Assembly (NCBI GenBank): GCA_016182655.1
Contig: JACPGB010000008.1
Span: 62,001 to 126,000, forward strand
Source of the DNA: Deltaproteobacteria bacterium
Lineage (GTDB): Bacteria; Desulfobacterota; GWC2-55-46
Length of the DNA: 64,000 nucleotides
Direction of reading: 5' to 3'
Part shown: one piece after another, positions 5,981 through 18,329 of the stretch
How positions within the stretch are numbered: position 1 is the first letter of the stretch
Layout of the letters: every line of letters starts with the position of its first letter
Notes under the pieces: model-generated
Database searches by the model: none
Told to the model about the DNA's origin: nothing
What the model saw: only the letters and a program-made list of their open reading frames with translations
Translations under genes and position numbers: made by a program

Positions 5981-6598
5981 TCACGATATGAGATAGAAAA
6001 ACGGAAAAAGGAATATCCAGATGATGTCCACAAGGTGCCAGTAAAGGGCCGCGTTCTCGAGCTTTACGAAGTCGCGCTTGTTCACGATCCCGCCTGCGGT
6101 AAGCGTGGCAGTGACAGCGAGCACTATCATCCCGGCTATGACATGGAGCCCGTGGAGGCCCGTGGTGAAGAAATACAGGCCATAAAAGACCGCCTCACCG
6201 GGAGGCAGCTCAGCGAACGCATCTCCACCGGGGTAGATGCCGTGAGCGATCTTCCCCGTCCATTCGAGATACTTGTTTACGAGGAATATGCCGCCGAGCG
6301 TGATTGTCACGAATATGAAGATGAGCGTGAGCTCGGTCTTGCCTCGCCTTATGGACGCGACAGACAAGGCGGCGGTCAGGCTCGATGTAAGGAGGATGAG
6401 CGTGTTCGCAAACCCGATGGTCTTATCCAGACTCTGTGAGGCGGCATGGAAGGCCTCCGGGTGCCTGATATCGTGCATGACATAGAGGAGGAGCGGGCCG
6501 AAAAAGAGACCGAGCTCGGTAAGAAGAAAGAGCCACATCCCGAGCTTTGCCCCTGCGTAGTCCCTGTGCGATGCGACCTTCTCAACCGTCTCGTTCAT
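5981..6598 (-). CDS. coxC: Cytochrome c oxidase subunit III
   Basis: A 205-residue integral membrane protein with five predicted helices. Family marks are KLGMWLFLLTELGLFFG near the start, FFTTGLHGLHVIAGM near 140-155 and ALYWHLVDIIWIFLFPFFYL at the end. The short form without the first two helices of the mitochondrial protein is usual for caa3 oxidases. The start overlaps the stop of coxA (6595-6598), so the two are translationally coupled. Confidence 0.95.
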   Translation of the reverse strand: MNETVEKVASHRDYAGAKLGMWLFLLTELGLFFGPLLLYVMHDIRHPEAFHAASQSLDKTIGFANTLILLTSSLTAALSVASIRRGKTELTLIFIFVTITLGGIFLVNKYLEWTGKIAHGIYPGGDAFAELPPGEAVFYGLYFFTTGLHGLHVIAGMIVLAVTATLTAGGIVNKRDFVKLENAALYWHLVDIIWIFLFPFFYLIS

Positions 6599-8193
6599 CT
6601 TAAGCCTCTGAAGTCGTACGGTCCCTTGGTCACTTCAGGGATCTTTTCGAAGTTCTCACGCCCCGGCGGCGACGGTATCTTCCACTCAAGGGTCGCCCCT
6701 CCCCAGGGGTTCTCTGTAGTGCGCGCCCCCCTGAACGCGCCCCTCAAAAGATTCGCAAACATGATAATAAGCCCGGCCACAAGCACCCACGAGCCGACTA
6801 TCGAGACTATCTGCAGGGTCGAATATTGCGGCAGATAGTCGAAGTACCTACGCGGCATCCCCTCTATCCCGAGGAGGAGCATCGGGAAAAAGAGCGTGTT
6901 GAACCCGATGAAGAGTATGAGGCACGACCAGTTGGCGACCCTCGCGTTGTACATCCTACCGGTCATCTTCGGGAGCCAGTAGTGGAGCCCGGCGAAGAAG
7001 GCGAAACCCGCGCCGCCGAATTTTATGTAGTGGAAGTGGCTTACGACGAAGTAGGTGTCGTGGAGGTGGACGTTCACCGAGAGCGCGCCCAATATGAGCC
7101 CCGTGAGCCCGCCGATGGAGAATAGGAATATGAAGGCGAGCGCGAAAAAAAATGGCGTCCCGAGCCAGATCGACCCCTTGTACAGGGTCCCGACCCAGTT
7201 GAAGACCTTTATGGCGCTCGGTATGGCGACGAGGAATGTGAAGAACGAGAATATCACGCCAGCCGTGTACGACGACCCGCTTACGAACATGTGGTGTCCC
7301 CAGACGAGGGAGCCTACGCCTGCGATGCCCAACGACGAATAGGCTATGGCCCTGTACCCGAATATGACCTTCCTCGCGAAGACCGGTATTATCTCCGATA
7401 TTATCCCCATGCCCGGGAGTATCATGATGTATACGGCCGGGTGCGAGTATATCCAGAAGAGGTGCTGGTATAATATCGGGTCGCCGCCCTTGGCCGGGTC
7501 GAATACGCCAATGCCGAAGACCCTCTCGGCTATGACGAGGAGGAGGTTAACCCCGAGGATGGGGGTGGCGACTATCTGTATCCAGGCCGTCGCGTATACG
7601 GCCCAGACGAATAAAGGCATCCTCCAGAAACCCATGCCCGGCGCGCGGAGCCTGTGGACCGTCGTTACGAAGTTTATGCCGGTCAGGATGGATGAGAGCC
7701 CGAGGACGAATACGGCGAATACCGCGAGCGAGACGTAAGTCCCGGTCCTCAAGCTGTATGGCGCGTAGAAGGTCCACCCTGTGTCAGCGGGGCCGAGCGC
7801 GAGTGTGGCGAGGGCGAGCGCGGCCCCGGCCATGTAGAACCACCAGGAGAGGAGGTTGAGCTTGGGGAACGAGACGTCGTTCGCGCCTATCATTATCGGG
7901 AGGAAAAAGTTGCCGAATATGGAAGGTGTCGCAGGGATGATGAAGAGGAAGAGCATGACGACGCCGTGGAGGGTGAATACCGAGTTATAGGTCGAGGCCT
8001 CCATTATCGTAGGGCCGTGCGAGATGAGTTCGAGGCGCATGAGAAACCCCAAAGACACGCCGACGACAAAGAACGAGAGGATGGATACGAGGTAGAGTAT
8101 GCCTATCCTCTTGTGGTCGGTCGAGAATATCCATGAGGAGAGCCCGTTGGGCCCGCCCCCTCCGCCGAGGTATCCGGCCCCCTCACTCGCCAT
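6595..8193 (-). CDS. coxA: Cytochrome c oxidase subunit I, A2 subtype
   Basis: The open frame extends to 8292, but the ATG at 8193 (MASEGAGY), with GGAAGG upstream, is the sensible start and gives 532 residues overlapping the end of the SCO gene by 11 bases. Twelve helices are expected. The heme and CuB histidines are visible in TLHGVVM, WGHHMFVSG and HDTYFVVSHFHY. The helix VI motif reads YSHPAVYIMILPG, so the D-channel glutamate of A1 enzymes (HPEVY) is missing and replaced upstream by the YS pair that defines A2 oxidases; the cross-linked tyrosine is kept. The protein reduces oxygen to water at the inner membrane and pumps protons. Confidence 0.95.
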   Translation of the reverse strand: MASEGAGYLGGGGGPNGLSSWIFSTDHKRIGILYLVSILSFFVVGVSLGFLMRLELISHGPTIMEASTYNSVFTLHGVVMLFLFIIPATPSIFGNFFLPIMIGANDVSFPKLNLLSWWFYMAGAALALATLALGPADTGWTFYAPYSLRTGTYVSLAVFAVFVLGLSSILTGINFVTTVHRLRAPGMGFWRMPLFVWAVYATAWIQIVATPILGVNLLLVIAERVFGIGVFDPAKGGDPILYQHLFWIYSHPAVYIMILPGMGIISEIIPVFARKVIFGYRAIAYSSLGIAGVGSLVWGHHMFVSGSSYTAGVIFSFFTFLVAIPSAIKVFNWVGTLYKGSIWLGTPFFFALAFIFLFSIGGLTGLILGALSVNVHLHDTYFVVSHFHYIKFGGAGFAFFAGLHYWLPKMTGRMYNARVANWSCLILFIGFNTLFFPMLLLGIEGMPRRYFDYLPQYSTLQIVSIVGSWVLVAGLIIMFANLLRGAFRGARTTENPWGGATLEWKIPSPPGRENFEKIPEVTKGPYDFRGLR

Positions 8194-9016
8194 CGCGCCT
8201 TCCCTTCCTGCCCGAGTAATTGAGATAGATGAAAAGCATTGCCGAGCCGAAGAGGACGCCGAGCCCCGAGACCTTGAGCGCGTCCAGCACATAGCCCCTC
8301 GTCTCCGGGTCGTACCTGTAGCAGAGTTTCAAGAGCCTCGGCACCGTCGGCGCTGTCTTGTTCGCGGCCGTCTCGGCAATTGCCATCCTTATCTCGGCGG
8401 GGAGGAACATCTCCCCTCTTATGTACCTTACTATCTTGCCGGACTTTGAGAGCAGGATGAGCGCGGCGGGGTGGTCGAAACCGTCCGAGGACTTCCTGAA
8501 ACTTATCCCGAGGGCGGAAGCGAGCGAGGCGATATTATCCTTGTCGCCGACGAGGAACCTCCAGCCGTCATCCGGGATGTTTCCGCCGGATACGGCGAAA
8601 AAGTCCCGCTTTTTCTTAAGCGCGTCCACGGGCGTGTCTTTATCATCCATCGAGACCGCGAGTATCCTGTAGTCCGGCCCCGGAGGAAAACCTCCGGCAA
8701 TGGAGGCGAGAGACCCGGATACGGTCCGGCAGAGGTTGGAGCACCTGTAATACGAAAGGTATATTATGGTCGGCCTGTCCACGAGCGACTTGAGCGTTAC
8801 CTTTTCGCCCGATTCGTCAAAAAATACGAGGTCAGCCGGAATAACCCCGCCGAGCCTCTCCTTAACGCCTATCTCTTTCTGCGTATCGGGTTTTTCGGGT
8901 ATGGCGCGCGCCTCAAAAGGGATGAGAATGGATAGGAGGATGGTCCATATCAGTATGCCGTATCTGTCCGTCAGTATTTTCATGGACCGGGGGGAGTCTT
9001 TCAGGCCTTTTTTCAA
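8183..9016 (-). CDS. SCO1/SenC-family copper chaperone for oxidase assembly
   Basis: The product has an N-terminal membrane or signal segment (ILIWTILLSILIPFEARA), a thioredoxin fold with the copper-binding CSNLC motif near 92-96 and the partner histidine in FDHPAAL near 180, and a C-terminal membrane helix (GLGVLFGSAMLFIYLNY). SCO proteins deliver copper to the CuA centre of subunit II. The gene sits directly before coxA and overlaps it by 11 bases. The start is uncertain: 9016 is a TTG; an ATG at 8983 is equally possible and neither has a strong ribosome site. A second, C-terminal helix is a variation seen in oxidase-operon SCO proteins of several phyla. Confidence 0.88.
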   Translation of the reverse strand: MKKGLKDSPRSMKILTDRYGILIWTILLSILIPFEARAIPEKPDTQKEIGVKERLGGVIPADLVFFDESGEKVTLKSLVDRPTIIYLSYYRCSNLCRTVSGSLASIAGGFPPGPDYRILAVSMDDKDTPVDALKKKRDFFAVSGGNIPDDGWRFLVGDKDNIASLASALGISFRKSSDGFDHPAALILLSKSGKIVRYIRGEMFLPAEIRMAIAETAANKTAPTVPRLLKLCYRYDPETRGYVLDALKVSGLGVLFGSAMLFIYLNYSGRKGRRDGE

Positions 9017-9027
9017 AGGATATCAGT

Positions 9028-9528
9028 TTATTTCTCTCCGTCAAGGGAGTGTGTCAAAGGGAAGTAGACCGGGGAGGTCTTCTTGAACTCTATGAGCGAA
9101 TTGAGCGCCCTCCAGGAGCTCAAACCCGTCAGCATGGAGAGCTCTTTAATGATACTTTCGAGGTGTCCGGGGTCGTCGGCGTGTATCATGGTGTAGAGGT
9201 CGTACGGGAAGCCCTCGAACGACGGCCTTATGTAGCAGTGGCTTATCCTCGGGTGTTTCGCCATGACGCCTCCGGCGTCCTCGGCCATCTTCCCGGCCTC
9301 CCAGACGACCATCGCGTTCGACTTGAACCCGGAGTTTCTGGGCGTCAATGCCGCGCCGAACCTCCTTATTGCACCGGCCTCCTTAAGGGCCCTCGTGAGC
9401 TCGATGACCTCGTCAGGGTCCCAGCCGCGCAGCTTCGCCGCGCTTCCAAATGGGTCCCTTTCCAGATAGAGCTCCTCTATCTGGAGGACCCTTATAAGCT
9501 CTATGTATCTCGCGTCAGTCTTTATCAT
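9028..9528 (-). CDS. ahbB: Siroheme decarboxylase subunit AhbB / NirL-H type
   Basis: A 166-residue Lrp/AsnC-like protein. The N-terminal half is a degenerate winged helix; family marks are IRRFGAALTPRNSGFKSNA near 75-92, ISHCYIRPSFEGFPYDLYTMIH near 115-136, both typical of the B subunit of siroheme decarboxylase. The pair AhbA/AhbB (or NirDL-GH) removes two acetate carboxyls from siroheme to give didecarboxysiroheme, the common precursor of heme d1 and of heme b in the alternative pathway. It overlaps the preceding ahbA by 14 bases. The adjacent nirJ and nirF genes favour the heme d1 role. Confidence 0.88.
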   Translation of the reverse strand: MIKTDARYIELIRVLQIEELYLERDPFGSAAKLRGWDPDEVIELTRALKEAGAIRRFGAALTPRNSGFKSNAMVVWEAGKMAEDAGGVMAKHPRISHCYIRPSFEGFPYDLYTMIHADDPGHLESIIKELSMLTGLSSWRALNSLIEFKKTSPVYFPLTHSLDGEK

Positions 9529-10003
9529 CGAGTTTCAAGTCCACCTTTATCTTGAATACCTTGAGGGCCGGGAGGTTCTTGACCGGAGCCCCGCACTTAT
9601 CCGTTATCTCGGCTATTATGGCATCAATGGATTCGCGGGACTCCGCAATGAGCGTAAACCAGACGTTCGGCTTCCCCTTTCGGAGATAATTGTGCGTGAC
9701 CTGCGGAAAGGCGTTTATGACCTTTACCGCGTCGTAGATCCTCTCTCCCGGCACCTCCATCGCGCAGAGGGTCGATGCGTAGTCGAGCTTTTTGGCGTCG
9801 AAGAAAGGGCCGACCTTCCTTATGATCCCCCGGTCGATGAGCGCAAGGACGCGCCTTAACGCCTCGTCCCCGGCTACACCCGCTTCTTTTCCCACTTCGC
9901 CGAACGGGTCCCTTGATATCGGAAAATCCCCCTGGATGCGGTTGAGGATCTTCCTGTCCGTCTCGTCGAGCCTCGGTTCCGGGAGCTTTTCGTATGTGTG
10001 CAT
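9515..10003 (-). CDS. ahbA: Siroheme decarboxylase subunit AhbA / NirD-G type
   Basis: The ATG at 10003 with AAAGGAG five bases upstream is preferred over an in-frame GTG at 10009. The 162-residue product starts with an AsnC-type helix-turn-helix (LDETDRKILNRIQGDFPIS) and then has IIRKVGPFFDAKKLDYASTLCAM and VTHNYLRKGKPNVWFTLIAE, the marks of the A subunit of siroheme decarboxylase. Although it looks like a regulator, this family is enzymatic. It is the first gene of the minus-strand run ahbA-ahbB-SCO-cox and is divergent from nirJ, sharing an intergenic region of about 150 bases. Confidence 0.88.
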   Translation of the reverse strand: MHTYEKLPEPRLDETDRKILNRIQGDFPISRDPFGEVGKEAGVAGDEALRRVLALIDRGIIRKVGPFFDAKKLDYASTLCAMEVPGERIYDAVKVINAFPQVTHNYLRKGKPNVWFTLIAESRESIDAIIAEITDKCGAPVKNLPALKVFKIKVDLKLDDKD

Positions 10004-10151
10004 GTCCACTCCTTTGTCGTATGAACGAGCTTAACCCGTAAACACCGGTTGTCAAGCGCGCCGGACTTTTTTTTCACGAACGCTTAACAACCGTTTTTTT
10101 TCTGCTATGCTTTCCACCAAGCCCGAAAAAGAGCCCCTTGGGGAATACGTT

Positions 10152-11267
10152 ATGCTGAACATCACGGACCTTCTTGGCGGACCCGCGAGGCGCGCCCGGG
10201 GGACGCGGCCTGTAGTCGTATGGAACATAACAGGCGCGTGCGGTCTCCGTTGCCTGCACTGCTACAGCAAGGCAGGCGCGGCGGATGAGCGGGAGCTCTC
10301 GACTGATGAGGCCCTCGCCGCAATCGACGGCCTCTCCGATTACGGGGTCCATGCGCTCATATTCTCCGGCGGCGACCCGCTCGAAAGAAGCGACCTCATG
10401 GAGCTCGTCTCCCATGCCTCGAAAAGGTCATTAAAGGCCGCCATCTCCACGAGCGGGGTCACGCTCGACACGGAGACGGCAAAAAGGCTCAAGGACGCGG
10501 GAGCCTCATACATCGGCGTAAGCCTCGAGGGGGACGAGGAGGCGAACGACGCGATCAGGGGAAAAGGGTCGTTCAGGAGGGCGCTCGAAGGCATACGCGC
10601 CTCTGTCCGGACCGGGATACCTACTGGATCGAGGCTCACACTCACCAGGCTCAACATCGGGGGACTCCCCTTCATATTCCGGCTCGTCGAGGAGGAAGGC
10701 GTCGGCAGGCTCTATTTCTCGCACCTTGTCTACTCGGGCAGGGGAAGGAGAAAAGACGCGCCAGGCAACGCGGAGACCAGGCGCGCGGTCGACTCGATAA
10801 TCGGCGCGGCCGTCGATTTTTTGGAGAGGTCCGTCCCCTCCGAGATCGTCACGGGGTCGAACGAGGCCGACGGCGTATGCCTTTATTTGAAGACCAGGGA
10901 CCACGACCCGGCAATGGCGCAGTCTATCTACGCAGGCCTCGTTACGCGGGGCGGCAACACCTCGGGCGTGGGGATATGCTCGATAGACAGAGAGGGGTTC
11001 GTCCACCCGGACCAGTTCTGGTCTACCCACTCGTTCGGCAATGTCAGGGAGAGGCCTTTCGGGGAGATATGGGAGGGTAATGACGCCCTTAAGACCGCGC
11101 TCCGCAAAAGGACGGGGCTCATAAAGGGCAGGTGCGCGGCGTGCATCCACTTCGACGCATGCAACGGGAATTCGAGGCAGAGGGCGCTTGCGGAGACCGG
11201 CGACCCGTTCGGCGAGGACCCGGCCTGTTATTTAACGGACGCCGAAGTATTCGGGAGGAGACGGTGA
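10152..11267 (+). CDS. nirJ: Radical SAM heme d1 synthesis protein NirJ (AhbC-like)
   Basis: I prefer the ATG at 10152 (MLNITDLLGG), with GGGGA seven bases upstream, over the ATG at 10107, which lacks a ribosome site. The 371-residue protein has the radical SAM CGLRCLHCY motif near 33-41 with its three cluster cysteines, and a C-terminal cysteine set (CSIDREGFVHP, then CAACIHFDACNG and a late CYL) typical of the SPASM-like auxiliary cluster. NirJ replaces two propionate groups of didecarboxysiroheme with carbonyls on the way to heme d1; the closely related AhbC instead acts in heme b synthesis. The following nirF decides in favour of NirJ. Confidence 0.85.
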   Translation: MLNITDLLGGPARRARGTRPVVVWNITGACGLRCLHCYSKAGAADERELSTDEALAAIDGLSDYGVHALIFSGGDPLERSDLMELVSHASKRSLKAAISTSGVTLDTETAKRLKDAGASYIGVSLEGDEEANDAIRGKGSFRRALEGIRASVRTGIPTGSRLTLTRLNIGGLPFIFRLVEEEGVGRLYFSHLVYSGRGRRKDAPGNAETRRAVDSIIGAAVDFLERSVPSEIVTGSNEADGVCLYLKTRDHDPAMAQSIYAGLVTRGGNTSGVGICSIDREGFVHPDQFWSTHSFGNVRERPFGEIWEGNDALKTALRKRTGLIKGRCAACIHFDACNGNSRQRALAETGDPFGEDPACYLTDAEVFGRRR

Positions 11268-12457
11268 AAAAGATATTATTCGCGCTCGTGTTCTTGTTTC
11301 TCACTGCCTTTGACGGAGAGGCCGTTGAAAGGCGATACGGCACCTCGGCCCTCATGGTAGTCGTCGAGAGGGAGTCGGGGGCGGTCGTTGTCATAGACTC
11401 CGTCGAGCACGAGCTTTTGGGAAGGGTAGAGGGGCTCGGGGACCTGAGGCACGCAACGCTCGTTTTTTCGCGGGACGCGCGATTCGCGTTTACAATAGCG
11501 CGGGACGGCACGCTCTCGAAGATAGACCTCCTTACCCTTACGCTCGAAAGGCAGGCAAAGGCAGGGGACAACTCCATAGGCATCGCGATATCGAGGGACA
11601 ACAAGTATCTCATGGTATGCAACTACTCTCCGGGCGGCGCTGTCGTATTCGATGCGAGGGACCTGAGGAAAGTAAAAGAGATACCGGCGATATATAAAGA
11701 AGGGGCCGCGCCCTCGCGCACGGTAGGTCCGCTCGACACGCCGGAGAACCTCATGATCTTCGGCCTCATGGAGGGCGACTCGGTCTGGGTGGTGGACATG
11801 AAGGCAGAGGGCTTCCCCGTCGTAAAGAAGTTCGAGTCCGCCGGAGAGACCCCCTACGACCAGCTCATCACGCCTGACGGCAGGTATTACCTCGTGGGTT
11901 TTGAAAAATCCGATTGGATGGGGCTTGTGGACACATGGAGGCTCGACAGGGTCAGAAAAATTGATGTGAGCGAAAGGAACGCGGCCGACGAAGGGGCCGC
12001 GCCGATCCACCACATCCCGCACCTCGAGTCGTGGGCTATATCGGGCAGGTACGCATTCGTCCCGGCCTTCGGGCGCAGACGCGTGCTCGTGTACGACACC
12101 GAAGACTGGTCGCTTAAAAAATCGATCCCCATTTCCGGCACAGGCCTTTTCGTCGTGGCAAGGCCCGGCGGCCGAGAGGTCTGGGTAGACAATACCGGAG
12201 CGCCCGGGAGCGCGGAGGAGCGGACCATAGAGGTGATAGATACCGAGACGCTTTCCGTGAAGGACAGGATAGATGCCGGCAAGGGCGCGATAGACCCGCA
12301 GTTCACGGCCAAGGGCGAATCCGCCTATGTCTCCGTAAGGGAAGAGGACAGGGTCGTCGTATACGATACGGACACGAAGAAGGTCATAAGGGAGTTCAAG
12401 GTCAGGAGGCCTTCCGGGATATTCTCTTCCTACAGGGCGGGGCAGTTCGGATTATGA
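11264..12457 (+). CDS. nirF: Heme d1 biosynthesis protein NirF, cytochrome d1-like propeller
   Basis: The GTG at 11264 overlaps the nirJ stop as GTGA and follows GGGAGGAG. The 397-residue protein has a signal peptide (ILFALVFLFLTAFDGEA) and an eight-bladed d1-type propeller. RHATLVFSRDARFAF near 60, followed by RDGTLSKIDL, corresponds to the histidine-containing blade of NirF. NirF acts in the periplasm in a late step of heme d1 synthesis. No CxxCH is present, so it is not cytochrome cd1 itself; NirN would also carry a cytochrome c domain. The two-gene plus-strand operon is divergent from ahbA. Confidence 0.85.
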   Translation: MKKILFALVFLFLTAFDGEAVERRYGTSALMVVVERESGAVVVIDSVEHELLGRVEGLGDLRHATLVFSRDARFAFTIARDGTLSKIDLLTLTLERQAKAGDNSIGIAISRDNKYLMVCNYSPGGAVVFDARDLRKVKEIPAIYKEGAAPSRTVGPLDTPENLMIFGLMEGDSVWVVDMKAEGFPVVKKFESAGETPYDQLITPDGRYYLVGFEKSDWMGLVDTWRLDRVRKIDVSERNAADEGAAPIHHIPHLESWAISGRYAFVPAFGRRRVLVYDTEDWSLKKSIPISGTGLFVVARPGGREVWVDNTGAPGSAEERTIEVIDTETLSVKDRIDAGKGAIDPQFTAKGESAYVSVREEDRVVVYDTDTKKVIREFKVRRPSGIFSSYRAGQFGL

Positions 12458-13232: not shown

Positions 13233-13502
13233 ATGAAGTCCTGCTTCCACTGCAAGAAGCCCATCGAGACGGGAAGGCCCGGAAGGGGGGAAGCGTGTCC
13301 TCACTGCGGCTCTGACCTAAAGGCCTGCCTGAACTGCGCTTTTTATGACAGGGACTCTTACAACGAGTGCAGGGAGACCTCGGCTGAGAGGGTGAAGGAC
13401 AAGGAGAAGGCGAACTTCTGCGAGTTCTTCGAGTTCAGGGAAACGGATGCCGCCCGGAAAACGGACGACCCGTTCAAAAACCTCAAGGACCTTTTTAAGT
13501 GA
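13233..13502 (+). CDS. Small cysteine-rich zinc-ribbon-like protein
   Basis: An 89-residue protein with CFHCKKP (residues 4-10), CPHCGSDLKACLNCAFYD (near 22-38) and later NECRE and NFCEFFEF. The first two CxxC pairs form a rubredoxin-like zinc ribbon; the later cysteines may add a second site. The rest is charged and ends in DPFKNLKDLFK. I recall similar short proteins in deltaproteobacteria but know no function. It converges with the REC fusion gene, their ends touching at 13502-13503. Confidence 0.7.
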   Translation: MKSCFHCKKPIETGRPGRGEACPHCGSDLKACLNCAFYDRDSYNECRETSAERVKDKEKANFCEFFEFRETDAARKTDDPFKNLKDLFK

Positions 13503-14360
13503 TCAGGCGCTCAACACGCCCGCCACGGCCTTTCTTATCTCCCTTATCGACGATGGCTTCGGCAGGCTCTTGAGCCCGTTGTCCTTCAGGAATGCAACTG
13601 TCGATTTGTCGAGCGCGCCTGAAAAGAAAATAAACCTCTCCCTTATTCTCGGGTACTTCGTGGAGGCGGCCTTGTAGAGCTCGATCCCGTTCATCTCCGG
13701 CATCTCCATGTCGGAGATGATCACCGAGTAATACCTTTCCTCGATCTTTTCAAGCCCCTCCCTGCCGTTACTGACCGCGTCGACCAGCCCCTCTTGGTAG
13801 AGCACCTCTTTCAAGAGGTCCCTTATGTCCTCGTCGTCCTCGACTACGAGGATGCTGTCTTCCCAGACCCTCGGCAGGCCCTTTATCCTGTCGAGCAGGT
13901 CTTTGAGCTCACCCCTGCCTTCGATGAATTCCTCTATGCGCCTCTTGTGGTGCTGGACGCTGACCGCGGCATCGACGAACTCCCTGGACTCGGATTTGAG
14001 ACTATTTATAGCGAACCGGAAGAGGTCGTTCCATTCCGAGAACTCGGCTTTTACGACGCCCTCAAGGAACGCCGTCCTGTCGAGGGGCCCTCCGTCGATC
14101 ATCCTTTCGCATTTAGAGAAGTGCCCGGCCATCTCCTCCATCGCGGCCTCGTCCAGAGTAACCGGAGAGACGAAATCCCGCCCCTTTATGAACCCGGAGG
14201 CCCTCTCGATCATGAACTTGTGGGCGGCCTCCTCCACGGAGAGGGCCTTGAAAAATTCCGAAAGCTCCCTGTCATTTGCGGAAAACGCTGCAGATGCCCT
14301 TGCATAGAGCTCCTCGGCCCTGCCCTCCATCCATATAAGCCACAAAAGTAGCGCTTTCAT
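13503..14360 (-). CDS. Ferritin-like (rubrerythrin-type) domain fused to a response-regulator receiver
   Basis: The ATG at 14360 follows GGTGATCAG; an upstream GTG at 14393 would put a TATAAT-like element inside the gene, so the shorter 285-residue form is preferred. Residues about 5-150 are helical with carboxylate/histidine pairs in the order expected for a ferritin-like four-helix bundle: MEGRAEELYARA, SVEEAAHKFMIE, and later VQHHKRRIEEF. Residues about 168-285 are a receiver domain: ILVVEDDEDIRD (acidic pocket), YYSVIISDMEMPEMNG (phosphoacceptor Asp), FFSGAL and SLPKPSS (Lys). The combination suggests that a di-iron or oxygen/peroxide-sensing bundle is coupled to phosphorylation, but it could also be a degenerate scaffold. 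No output domain is present. Confidence 0.75.
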   Translation of the reverse strand: MKALLLWLIWMEGRAEELYARASAAFSANDRELSEFFKALSVEEAAHKFMIERASGFIKGRDFVSPVTLDEAAMEEMAGHFSKCERMIDGGPLDRTAFLEGVVKAEFSEWNDLFRFAINSLKSESREFVDAAVSVQHHKRRIEEFIEGRGELKDLLDRIKGLPRVWEDSILVVEDDEDIRDLLKEVLYQEGLVDAVSNGREGLEKIEERYYSVIISDMEMPEMNGIELYKAASTKYPRIRERFIFFSGALDKSTVAFLKDNGLKSLPKPSSIREIRKAVAGVLSA

Positions 14361-14659
14361 CTGATCACCGACTGATATTATACACCTTTTCACGGGTCTT
14401 TTCTATTCTTCGGGTAAACAGAAGTCTACGCCGCCGTAGCCTTTTTTACGTACGGAGCCACTGCCGCAAGTACCCGTGAATCAAGGAAAAACTCACCCCC
14501 GCGCCGGATGGGGCCCGGGCAAGGCGTAAAAACCGTTTACACCATTGCCGGAGGCCGAGAAACGCTAAAAGGAAAACCCTTTAAAAGCGCTCATTCCCCG
14601 GGCAGTGACAATGGCACCGTAATTGCTTTCTATATTGCATAATCAACTGGAGGGGACGG

Positions 14660-14983
14660 ATGGGCCTGCCGGCTATTGCGATAATCATCATACCGCTTTT
14701 TCTCGGACTCGCGACGTTCCTCACAAGGGTCTCCGGGGAAAAAGAGGCCGAGCGCCTCAAGGGAGAGATAATACTCGCACAGAGGGAGATAAACGAGCTC
14801 CGGGACAGGAACAGGGCCTTCGGCGAGAATATGGAAGAGCTCCGGATATACAGGGTCGACGTGCAAGAGAAGACGAGGTATGTGCTAGAGCTCGAAAAGA
14901 AGCTCAGGATGATAGAGAAGAACGAAAAGGAGTGCCGGACTGACGATCAAAACGGCGGAGGCTCGTTAAGCGACAGCCAGTAA
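14660..14983 (+). CDS. Small membrane-anchored coiled-coil protein
   Basis: The 107-residue product has one N-terminal membrane helix (IAIIIIPLFLGLATFLTRV) followed by about 65 residues of highly charged heptad-like sequence and a polar tail. A CTGGAGGGG site precedes the ATG. The family is unknown. The last 37 bases overlap the convergent receiver gene. The preceding gap of about 300 bases (14361-14659) shows GC-rich hairpins but nothing I can name. Confidence 0.6.
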   Translation: MGLPAIAIIIIPLFLGLATFLTRVSGEKEAERLKGEIILAQREINELRDRNRAFGENMEELRIYRVDVQEKTRYVLELEKKLRMIEKNEKECRTDDQNGGGSLSDSQ

Positions 14984-15387
14984 TCGGCTACCCCCTTCAA
15001 CACCTCCTTGTACCTTTCAAAGTCCACCGGCTTTCTTATATAGCTGTTCGCGCGGTTCCTGTAAGCGAGGTCCCTGTCCCTCTCCTCGTTAGATACCGAG
15101 AATATCACGATCGGGACCTCTTCCGTCCTCTTGTCGTCCTTGAGCCTCTTCAGGACCTCGTGTCCGGATACCTTGGGGAGGTTCAGGTCCAGCAGTACGA
15201 GATCAGGCATTCCCCTCCTCCTGCCATTGAACTTCCCGGAAGAGAAGAGGTAATCGAGCGCCTCCGAGCCGTCGAGGGCGACGGCTATGCCGCACTCGAT
15301 GCCGCACTCCCGGAACCCGATGAGCGTAAGCTCTACGGCGTCCGGGTCGTCCTCGACGAGGAGTATTCTCTTTCCATTGCTTTTCAT
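14947..15387 (-). CDS. Stand-alone response regulator (Rcp1/CheY-like)
   Basis: The 146 residues are a single receiver domain: RILLVEDDPDAVELT with the acidic pair, PDLVLLDLNLPKVSGHE with the phosphoacceptor aspartate near 67, IFSVSNEERD at the Thr/Ser switch and SYIRKPVDF with the conserved lysine. The LDYLFSSGKF insertion is typical of the Rcp1 class that pairs with phytochrome or PAS hybrid kinases. No output domain is attached. A possible partner is the PAS hybrid kinase at 16449-18329, but they are not in one operon. Confidence 0.9.
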   Translation of the reverse strand: MKSNGKRILLVEDDPDAVELTLIGFRECGIECGIAVALDGSEALDYLFSSGKFNGRRRGMPDLVLLDLNLPKVSGHEVLKRLKDDKRTEEVPIVIFSVSNEERDRDLAYRNRANSYIRKPVDFERYKEVLKGVADYWLSLNEPPPF

Positions 15388-15796: not shown

Positions 15797-15910
15797 CAGC
15801 CTCCGAGGGCCCGCCTGTGGGAGACGCGGACAGCCCGTCGATTTTATGATAAAATTAAGAAAGATTACGCGTGGTTGCGCTTTAAGCGGCCATTTAACGG
15901 AGGTGTTTGG

Positions 15911-16384
15911 ATGAATACGGAAAAGTCGATCTTTGCCGCCGGGTGTTTCTGGGGGGTGGAGGAGGCTTTCAGGAATGTAGCCGGAGTCGTCTCGACAAGG
16001 GTAGGCTACACGGGCGGGGATACCGAAAACCCCTCTTATGAAGACGTTTGCACCGGGCTTACGGGACACGCCGAATCGGTGCTTGTGGAGTTCGACCCGG
16101 CCGTCGTCTCCTACGAGACGCTTATGGAGGTCTTCTGGTCGATACACGACCCCACGACCCTGAACAGGCAGGGGCCGGACGTAGGGAACCAGTACAGGTC
16201 CGCCATCTTCTATTTCGATAAGGAGCAGGAAAGGATCGCGCGCGCCTCAAAAAAGAGGCTCGAGGAAAAGGGCGCCCACAAAAGGCCGGTAGTCACCGAT
16301 ATATCGCCCGCCGGCCCGTTCTATGACGCGGAGGAATACCATCAGAGATATCTGGAAAAAAGAGGGCTTTCGCATTGCAGATGA
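15911..16384 (+). CDS. msrA: Peptide methionine sulfoxide reductase MsrA
   Basis: The ATG at 15911 follows ACGGAGG; the frame opens earlier at 15875 without a ribosome site. The 157-residue protein has the catalytic [10 protein letters not shown] motif near residue 11-20, [27 protein letters not shown] and the [10 protein letters not shown] block, all hallmarks of MsrA. A cysteine next to the C-terminus (LSHCR) could act in thiol recycling. It reduces methionine-S-sulfoxide in proteins, using thioredoxin. The short form without a fused MsrB is usual. Confidence 0.95.
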
Positions 16385-16448: not shown

Positions 16449-18329
16449 TCAATTATCGGATAGCGCGGACCTTACCGCCTCGCTCAGGCCCTTCATATTG
16501 AAGGGCTTTGCTATGGCCCCCTTAAGCCCGTATCTTCCATAATCGGCCATTATCGGGTCGTTCGAGTACCCGCTTGATACCATCGCTTTCACCCCGGGGT
16601 CCATCTCCTTGAGCCTCGCAAGCGCCTCCTTGCCCCCTGTCCCGCCCGGTACGGTAAGGTCGAGGATGACGAGGTCAAAGGGAACGCCAGCCTCTTTCGC
16701 CTTCGTATATTTTTTAACGGCCTCATCCCCGTCCCTGGAGACCTCGACCTCATAGCCGAGCGACGGGAGGATCTCCGCGGCGAGTTCCCGTATCATCTCC
16801 TCGTCGTCCATGAGGAGGACCTTTTTGCCGGAAGTCCCGAGGCCGCCTCCGGCCTCGCCGTTATCCACGGTCTTTAAAGCCGCCGGCAGGTACATAATGA
16901 ACACGCTCCCTCTGCCCGGGGCCGACTTTACGGTCAGATGCCCTTCATGCCCCTTTACTATGGAATACACGGCAGAGAGCCCGAGCCCGCTCCCCCTCTC
17001 TTTTGTGGTAAAAAACGGGTCGAAGATCCTCGGCAGGTCCTCTTCCTTTATGCCGCGCCCCTCGTCACCTATGGAGACCGTCACATACCCGCCCTTCCGG
17101 GCCGTGAGCCCGTCGCTAAAAGCGTCCTCGTTCCTTGCCGCGACTCTTACGACACCGCTTCCGTCCATCGCCTCAACGGCGTTCATAACAAGGTTCCGTA
17201 CGGCCTGCGAGACCTGCCCCTCGTCGATATAGGCGTCCCTTAAGTGTTCGTCGATATCGTATTCGCACTTCGCCTGCGCCCCCCGCGAGGCCACGGCGCA
17301 CCACTCGGGTATGAGCGGGGCGATGGATACCGCTTTTTTTACCGGGGCCCCGCCCCTTGAGAATGTAAGGAGCTGTTTTGTGAGGTCCCCTGCCCGCAAT
17401 GACGCCGACTCGGCGCGCAGGATCGCCTCGTAGGGCTTGCCCGTAGGGCAGAGCATCATCTTTGCGAGCGAGATGTTCCCGTATATGCCGGTCAAGATGT
17501 TATTGAACTCGTGGGCGATGCCTCCGGCGAGGAGGCCGATGGACTCGAGCTTCTGGGCCTTGAGCATCTCGGCCTCCAGCTTCTTGACCTCGGTCAGGTC
17601 CCTGAAGATCCCGAGTATGAGTTTCTTGTCTCCGAGTGAGAGCGCCTCGGCGCTTATGTGGACGATCACTATCGTCCCGTCCTTCCTCTCCACCTCGCCG
17701 ACATAGTCGGCGAGCTTGCCCCTGTCGACATGGAGCGCGAACTTTCCGCGGTATTCCTCGGCCTTGCCCGACGGATGGAGGGCCGACTGATGCATTCCTA
17801 TTATCTCTTCGCGGGGCCTTCCGAGGAGCTCCTCGCCCTTTTTGTTAGTCTCGAGCAGGACGCCCGTTGAGGCGTCGGCGAGGAGCGCCGCGTCGTTCAG
17901 GTGCTCGAAGAGGTGCCTGTACTTCTCCTCCGATTGCCTGAGCCTCTCCTGCGCGTCCTTGAGCTCGGTTAAGTCGCGCGAGTTGACGACGATCCCCGAG
18001 ACCTCGCCGTCCTCGCCGATAAACGGGTAATAGACTACGTTCATGTACCTCCTGCCTGTACCCGCGAAGTCTATCCACGCCGAGAAGTTTACGACCTCTC
18101 CCGCCAGGGCGCTGTCGAGATAGCCCTTGATCCGGAGGAATATCTCCTCTCCGAGGAGGTCCGCGACCGTTCTCCCGACGATCTCCTCCCGCTTTCTCCC
18201 GTGCGCGGCAAGATAGACGTCGTTCACCACCATATAGCGATAGTCCCTGCTTACAATCGAGATGTGGTCCGGGGCCGGTGCGATGAAACGCTGGAACTTC
18301 ATGATAGTATCTACGCTCAGGATGTCCAT
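16449..18329 (-). CDS. PAS-PAS hybrid sensor histidine kinase
   Basis: The 626-residue soluble kinase has two PAS domains (about 15-120 and 140-255), the first with FIAPAPDHISIVSRDYRY and the second with LFEHLNDAALLADASTG. The phosphorylated histidine lies in AGGIAHEFNNILTGI near 273. The ATP-binding domain shows NAVEAM (N box), GDEGRGI (G1) and GSGLGLSAVYSIVKGHEG (G2). A C-terminal receiver (KVLLMDDEEMIREL with Asp in LVILDLTVPGG) completes the hybrid. No membrane segment is visible, so it senses a cytoplasmic signal. The HEFNN form is typical of single-gene hybrids that pass phosphate to separate regulators. A GAACGGG hairpin overlaps the 3' end. Confidence 0.9.
   Translation of the reverse strand: MDILSVDTIMKFQRFIAPAPDHISIVSRDYRYMVVNDVYLAAHGRKREEIVGRTVADLLGEEIFLRIKGYLDSALAGEVVNFSAWIDFAGTGRRYMNVVYYPFIGEDGEVSGIVVNSRDLTELKDAQERLRQSEEKYRHLFEHLNDAALLADASTGVLLETNKKGEELLGRPREEIIGMHQSALHPSGKAEEYRGKFALHVDRGKLADYVGEVERKDGTIVIVHISAEALSLGDKKLILGIFRDLTEVKKLEAEMLKAQKLESIGLLAGGIAHEFNNILTGIYGNISLAKMMLCPTGKPYEAILRAESASLRAGDLTKQLLTFSRGGAPVKKAVSIAPLIPEWCAVASRGAQAKCEYDIDEHLRDAYIDEGQVSQAVRNLVMNAVEAMDGSGVVRVAARNEDAFSDGLTARKGGYVTVSIGDEGRGIKEEDLPRIFDPFFTTKERGSGLGLSAVYSIVKGHEGHLTVKSAPGRGSVFIMYLPAALKTVDNGEAGGGLGTSGKKVLLMDDEEMIRELAAEILPSLGYEVEVSRDGDEAVKKYTKAKEAGVPFDLVILDLTVPGGTGGKEALARLKEMDPGVKAMVSSGYSNDPIMADYGRYGLKGAIAKPFNMKGLSEAVRSALSDN

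Follow-up and report, generated by a model that had tools for sequence, protein, structure and literature searches.

We describe a 285-residue protein in which a putative ferritin-like di-iron bundle is joined to a receiver domain. The combination recurs, and both modules (all six candidate metal ligands and the phosphoacceptor Asp217) are intact in one chain in 72 of the 88 members of its family. This recurrence of the joined protein with both halves intact suggests a so far undescribed oxygen or redox switch. The parts are of known kinds; the combination, the ligand set and the spread are new, and among the papers listed by searches of open-licence PMC full text, none was described as dealing with such a bundle-receiver architecture. 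We favour, tentatively and at somewhat less than an even chance, an intracellular redox- or O2-responsive receiver, in which a di-iron-type site would sense and the receiver would be the part that is tuned.

Table 1. Positions of the fusion gene, its domains, its candidate functional residues and its neighbours in the window
Feature	Position	Strand	Details
Bundle-receiver fusion gene	13503..14360	-	285 aa plus stop; translation
N-terminal ferritin-like helical bundle (predicted)	13866..14360	-	Residues 1-165; family profile matches and bundle-only model
E12, helix 1 candidate ligand	14325..14327	-	84/88 members
E44xxH47, helix 2 candidate ligands	14220..14231	-	E44 86/88, H47 83/88
E106xxE109, helix 3 candidate ligands	14034..14045	-	E106 88/88 (invariant), E109 86/88
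H138, helix 4 candidate ligand	13947..13949	-	87/88; position -3 not Glu
Receiver domain	13524..13853	-	Residues 170-279; PF00072 (Response_reg), E 7e-17, Pfam search
D217, phosphoacceptor aspartate	13710..13712	-	Asp in 79/88 members, Glu in 5/88
Cys-rich zinc-ribbon protein	13233..13502	+	89 aa; convergent neighbour of the fusion gene
Single-domain receiver protein	14947..15387	-	Upstream, same strand; PF00072, E 7.8e-18
PAS-PAS-HisKA-HATPase-REC hybrid kinase	16449..18329	-	Candidate partner; upstream, same strand
Cytochrome oxidase subunit I and SCO1 genes	6595..9016	-	~4.5-8 kb downstream of the fusion gene

The fusion gene and its receiver half

The fusion gene lies on the minus strand of the window, by which we mean the whole stretch of 64,000 nucleotides that was analysed. 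The initial annotation had placed it at 13503-14360 without stating a strand; the coordinates hold, and the plus strand of this interval is interrupted by stops. The gene starts with an ATG at 14360 and its stop codon ends at 13503. An alternative in-frame start, a GTG, is found at 14393, and the homologues mostly use the same Met as start. The protein consists of a helical N-terminal half (residues 1-165) followed by a complete receiver (170-279). The completeness of the receiver, already claimed when the DNA was first read, was confirmed by the PF00072 match and by the presence of the key residues, namely the acidic pair E174/D175, D217, S247 and K268. PF00072 was matched in 84 of the 88 members at E<=0.001, and a receiver is carried by all 88 member genes. 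It is interrupted in a single one, L096, where it sits further on in another frame, past an insertion, making this the sole member without an in-frame receiver. L096 was considered as a receiver-less member and rejected as such, the receiver having been found beyond the insertion. No Cys is present in the receiver part of the window protein (residues 167-285), and the four-Cys Fe-S motif of the FixT type is absent from it. No DNA-binding or catalytic output domain was recognised in the fusion protein.

Similarity of the N-terminal half to ferritin-like proteins

A domain search of the bundle residues had been suggested with the first reading of the DNA. For the single sequence it failed: the N-terminal half alone matched no family in Pfam, NCBIfam or PHROGs and no PDB relative by phmmer, two nulls that count against the sensor reading, and PF02915 (Rubrerythrin) did not match the 285-residue protein itself. 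At the family level, in contrast, relatives were found. A profile built from 41 homologous bundles matched 2fzf in the PDB (E 4.9e-6), titled there as a hypothetical protein and which we take to be rubrerythrin-like. The same profile matched designed di-iron proteins at E 2e-4 to 8e-4, and also a Mn-cluster peptide and MiaE. With a profile of 88 bundles, the top match improved to 2e-7, and TM1526 (1vjx), a putative ferritin-like diiron-carboxylate protein, was matched at 0.0026 over residues 2-106. PF02915 matched 25 of the 41 homologues at E<=10 and 13 of the 88 members at E<=0.001. The bundle profile also retrieved proteins of rubrerythrin type from within the class. By profile, the helix 1 Glu and the helix 2 ExxH align with those of rubrerythrin and ferritin-like proteins (PF02915; 2fzf, TM1526/1vjx), and the matches to rubrerythrin-like proteins are carried mainly by helices 1-2. 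Family-level profiles support a ferritin-like di-iron bundle.

Structure models were computed with AF2 from an input of two sequences, the window protein and its relative L001. The full-length model had a pLDDT of 42.7 and was left unused. For the bundle alone, one of five models reached a pLDDT of 62.7 (the others 37.8-42.8) with a pTM of 0.53. Its helices span residues 2-26, 31-58, 71-90, 95-107, 109-121, 126-147 and 150-160, giving four long helices with an extra helix in the crossover between helices 2 and 3. In this model, the helix order fits an up-down-down-up arrangement with a long crossover, and the predicted bundle is similar to that of rubrerythrin and ferritin-like proteins. Foldseek with the bundle-only model gave nothing at E<=0.001, the best match being YciF (E 0.3). 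With VIA-align, nearly all of the 50 matches listed were ferritin-like di-metal proteins (YciF, TM1526, bacterioferritin, rubrerythrin and T4MO, for example) at Z 9-11. These values are below the tool's safe level for bundles and in a range that helical bundles may reach by their common arrangement. The moderate model confidence, the Foldseek null and the bundle-range Z count against the sensor reading, and the fold models are supportive of a ferritin-like bundle and not decisive. A mean-field coevolution analysis of 87 sequences (Neff 77) gave antiparallel and parallel diagonals of about equal score, near noise, and for this reason no topology is claimed from it.

The candidate metal site

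The initial annotation had named the lack of six metal ligands in an alignment or fold prediction as the result that would speak against a di-iron bundle. The family alignment has six near-invariant candidates, E12, E44, H47, E106, E109 and H138, and all six are kept together in 80 of the 88 members (Table 1). Because they are retained although the window bundle is only 22-91% identical to the bundles of other members, these positions are under strong selection, and judged from the alignment their joint retention is far above chance. Other well-kept bundle positions are Y19 (87/88) and N111 (85/88). All six residues would be metal ligands. The site would then be made of a Glu from helix 1, ExxH from helix 2, ExxE from helix 3 and a His from helix 4, thus four Glu and two His, which is the usual composition of a di-iron site. 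The ExxE of helix 3 (106/109) presumably resembles Glu94/Glu97 of rubrerythrin.

Of the carboxylate-histidine pairs of rubrerythrin type described at first, the ExxH of helix 2 stands, whereas the helix 4 pair is missing. In 81 of the 88 members, position 135, where its Glu would be expected, is occupied by I, V, M or L; at the neighbouring position 134, 29 members have Glu, and the window protein has Ser. The candidate ligand set is therefore different from that of textbook rubrerythrin, lacking the helix 4 ExxH and having a second Glu on helix 3, and this non-canonical helix 4 counts against the di-iron sensor reading. Hemerythrin has a different fold and a His-rich site, with five His in the classical site; in the bundle alignment, the His columns conserved at >=90% are H47 and H138 only, not the several His of a hemerythrin.

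Distribution of the family

Searching contigs with the whole protein gave 80 loci, among which one full-length relative (L001, 88% identical); the remaining 79 match mainly the receiver end. With residues 1-167 as query, 37 of 59 related genomes gave matches, and almost every match falls in an open frame of ~280-390 codons. The pairing, first described as rare, is thus not rare within the lineage. Outside it, none was found in 50 genomes reached via other loci (mostly other phyla by title) at 1e-6, a search with no positive control inside, the same profile finding members in the class and phylum sets. Within the class, 49 of 63 genomes contain a match to the 41-bundle profile at E<=0.001; some of these matches are weak and correspond to ordinary rubrerythrins, with frames of ~160-215 codons. 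In a sample of the phylum, 31 of 395 genomes matched the bundle profile at 1e-7, several of the matches being of rubrerythrin size, and in another class of the phylum 23 of 277 genomes matched at 1e-12. On plasmids, none of the 420 records matching by tblastn covers 80% of the query, and the matches listed are to the receiver part only.

The search for the same architecture in other genomes, also proposed at the outset, led to a recurrent family of 88 distinct members, counted as distinct sequences above a 60-bit cut. From these sequences, the fusion is a real family, common in its class and with a patchy presence in the rest of the phylum. The counts leave out fragmented copies, which occur in G059 and G061. 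L165 (G372) appears in a 67-member table, falls below the 60-bit cut and is excluded from the 88; it was rejected as a family member, as it has no receiver match and only a rubrerythrin match.

Proposed mechanism and alternative explanations

In the mechanism that we propose, E12, E44, H47, E106, E109 and H138 would hold a two-metal, probably di-iron, site inside a ferritin-like four-helix bundle, and the receiver could be phosphorylated at D217. If the site were oxidised, or bound O2 or peroxide, the packing of the bundle would change, and this in turn would change the phosphorylation of the receiver by a histidine kinase or its restraint of one. Since no output domain is recognised, the protein may act by protein-protein contact, as a phosphate sink, a kinase brake or an adaptor, in the manner of FixT on FixL. 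By analogy with FixT, hemerythrin fusions and a chemotaxis diiron protein, we assign the input to the bundle and regard the receiver as the part that is tuned; the main rivals are a bundle acting as output and an adaptor. The sequences themselves establish the fusion, its conservation, the near-invariant residues and those of the receiver, and from them we strongly infer the ferritin-like fold and the metal site. We presume that O2 or redox state is the signal, that it passes from the metal site to the receiver, and that the output is feedback on a kinase.

Natural variants bear on how the two halves are coupled. Among the 80 members with the full site, residue 217 is Asp in 72, Glu in 4, and Cys, Ala and Thr in one each; in one further member (L096) the receiver is split off. 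In the eight members without the full site it is Asp (7) or Glu (1). The site is thus kept about as well as the phosphoacceptor (six ligands in 80/88, Asp217 in 79/88), as would be expected if the bundle were the output, with a kinase phosphorylating the receiver to switch on or off a di-iron enzyme for O2, peroxide or NO reduction or for iron handling. Classical response regulators, in which the receiver drives an effector domain, work in this direction. Most of them have the receiver first, however, and here it is C-terminal; moreover, no electron-donor domain of rubredoxin type is fused, and the eight full-site members without a readable Asp217 (including L096 with its split receiver) would be unregulated enzymes. 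We regard a bundle acting as output as unlikely.

A tandem pair of family genes in G037 (L094:1462-3337) shows complementary losses between its copies: copy 1 has all six ligands and Ala at 217, and copy 2 has lost five of the six ligands and kept the receiver residues. Here the modules fail separately, which fits work in trans and an adaptor, whose receiver would dock to a kinase or signalling complex and bring along an oxidant-scavenging or metal-storing bundle with no allosteric coupling. The 72 members with both modules intact in one chain argue for coupling instead, and the G037 pair is one event, so that we find a pure adaptor rather improbable. A histidine-phosphotransfer or dimerisation bundle, with H138 phosphorylated and no metal site, is suggested by a helical bundle beside a receiver and a near-invariant His on the last helix, and is very improbable given that four Glu are near-invariant and another His stands at ferritin ExxH spacing, that the profile matches are to di-iron proteins and not to kinases or Hpt, and that the sequence around H138 (HKxxIExF) does not look like an Hpt or DHp motif.

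Two-component sensors normally feed in at the kinase. If the redox-responsive receiver is the right reading, a metal bundle on a receiver would let the signal enter downstream of the kinase, as for FixT, with di-iron instead of Fe-S. With 88 distinct members, the family is large enough for testing, and members that have lost either the site alone or the Asp alone are natural point mutants. The ligand set would be a variant of interest to di-iron protein research.

Comparison with known systems

Compared with rubrerythrin, the fusion protein has H138 alone on helix 4, no rubredoxin part and a receiver attached. FixT of Caulobacter is described as an Fe-S single-domain receiver that inhibits FixL and serves as a second oxygen or redox sensor (PMC7078487). 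The likeness would be an iron-cofactor receiver protein as a second redox/O2 input combined with a kinase brake, here proposed; the Fe-S cluster of FixT is held by a four-Cys motif (PMC7078487), whereas the fusion protein has a Cys-free receiver and its candidate metal site in a separate bundle. Hemerythrin domains are described as controlling a DGC and an HD-GYP (VcBhr-DGC and Bhr-HD-GYP; PMC8846402). These are likewise non-heme di-iron helical bundles fused to a signalling domain, with a c-di-GMP enzyme as partner (PMC8846402); in the fusion protein the partner is a receiver, and the candidate site has four Glu and two His. ODP of Treponema denticola, which serves chemotaxis, is a further case of a diiron protein sensing O2 in two-component-type signalling; it is described as a separate protein, genetically coupled to an MCP homologue and not receiver-fused (PMC7666581). 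Finally, the bundle model aligns at Z 9.7 with residues 6-171 of 3ezu, a GGDEF protein from Geobacter sulfurreducens whose function is unknown. This would be another helical bundle beside a signalling domain, differing by its GGDEF output. 3ezu is absent among the matches listed for the sequence profiles, and a figure legend gives its bound ligand as unidentified.

Genomic surroundings

The zinc-ribbon gene is also convergent with a family member in G001, G003, G004 and, in another genus, G010. Three further genomes of the genus (L142, L143 and L144) have a kinase ~0.5-1.1 kb from a member. Of the 65 members whose loci extend 2 kb to either side, however, only 9 have a kinase within 1.5 kb, which counts against the sensor reading. 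In the window, a gene for an MsrA-type methionine sulfoxide reductase (15875-16384) is located between the hybrid kinase and the fusion gene, and likewise in G003 (L142).

Downstream of the fusion gene come, in this order, the zinc-ribbon gene, heme d1-type genes, SCO1 and cytochrome oxidase (Table 1). In both G024 and G029, COX1, CtaB, SCO1 and the member are contiguous on the same strand, and 13 of the 48 genomes searched have a heme-copper oxidase subunit I gene within ~12 kb of a member. Counted by genus (one genome for each of 29 genera), proximity within 12 kb was observed in 5 of 29 against 1.26 expected (P 0.006), in a test devised post hoc with counts compiled by hand; within 5 kb, 2 were observed against 0.6 expected (P 0.12), which counts against the association. 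The oxidase neighbours thus lend weak, post hoc support to an oxygen link of the family. It is possible, though we lean towards doubt, that the family is a new redox-receiver class, in which a rearranged di-metal site would sense O2 or redox state and feed two-component signalling at the receiver, partly tied to the terminal oxidase, and in which one lineage would have split into paired metal-sensing and phosphate-receiving copies.

Between SCO1 and the fusion gene, the interval 9028-12457 of the window contains two NirDL-type siroheme decarboxylase genes (minus strand), a radical SAM/SPASM gene and a cytochrome d1-type propeller (both plus strand). This block looks inserted, because SCO1 lies only ~0.45 kb past the member in G003. 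Clustering of conserved neighbours over 61 loci gave no partner common to most loci. Two proteins with no Pfam match, at L104:5550-6158 and L104:3553-4338, are each found beside the family in 6 of these 61 loci.
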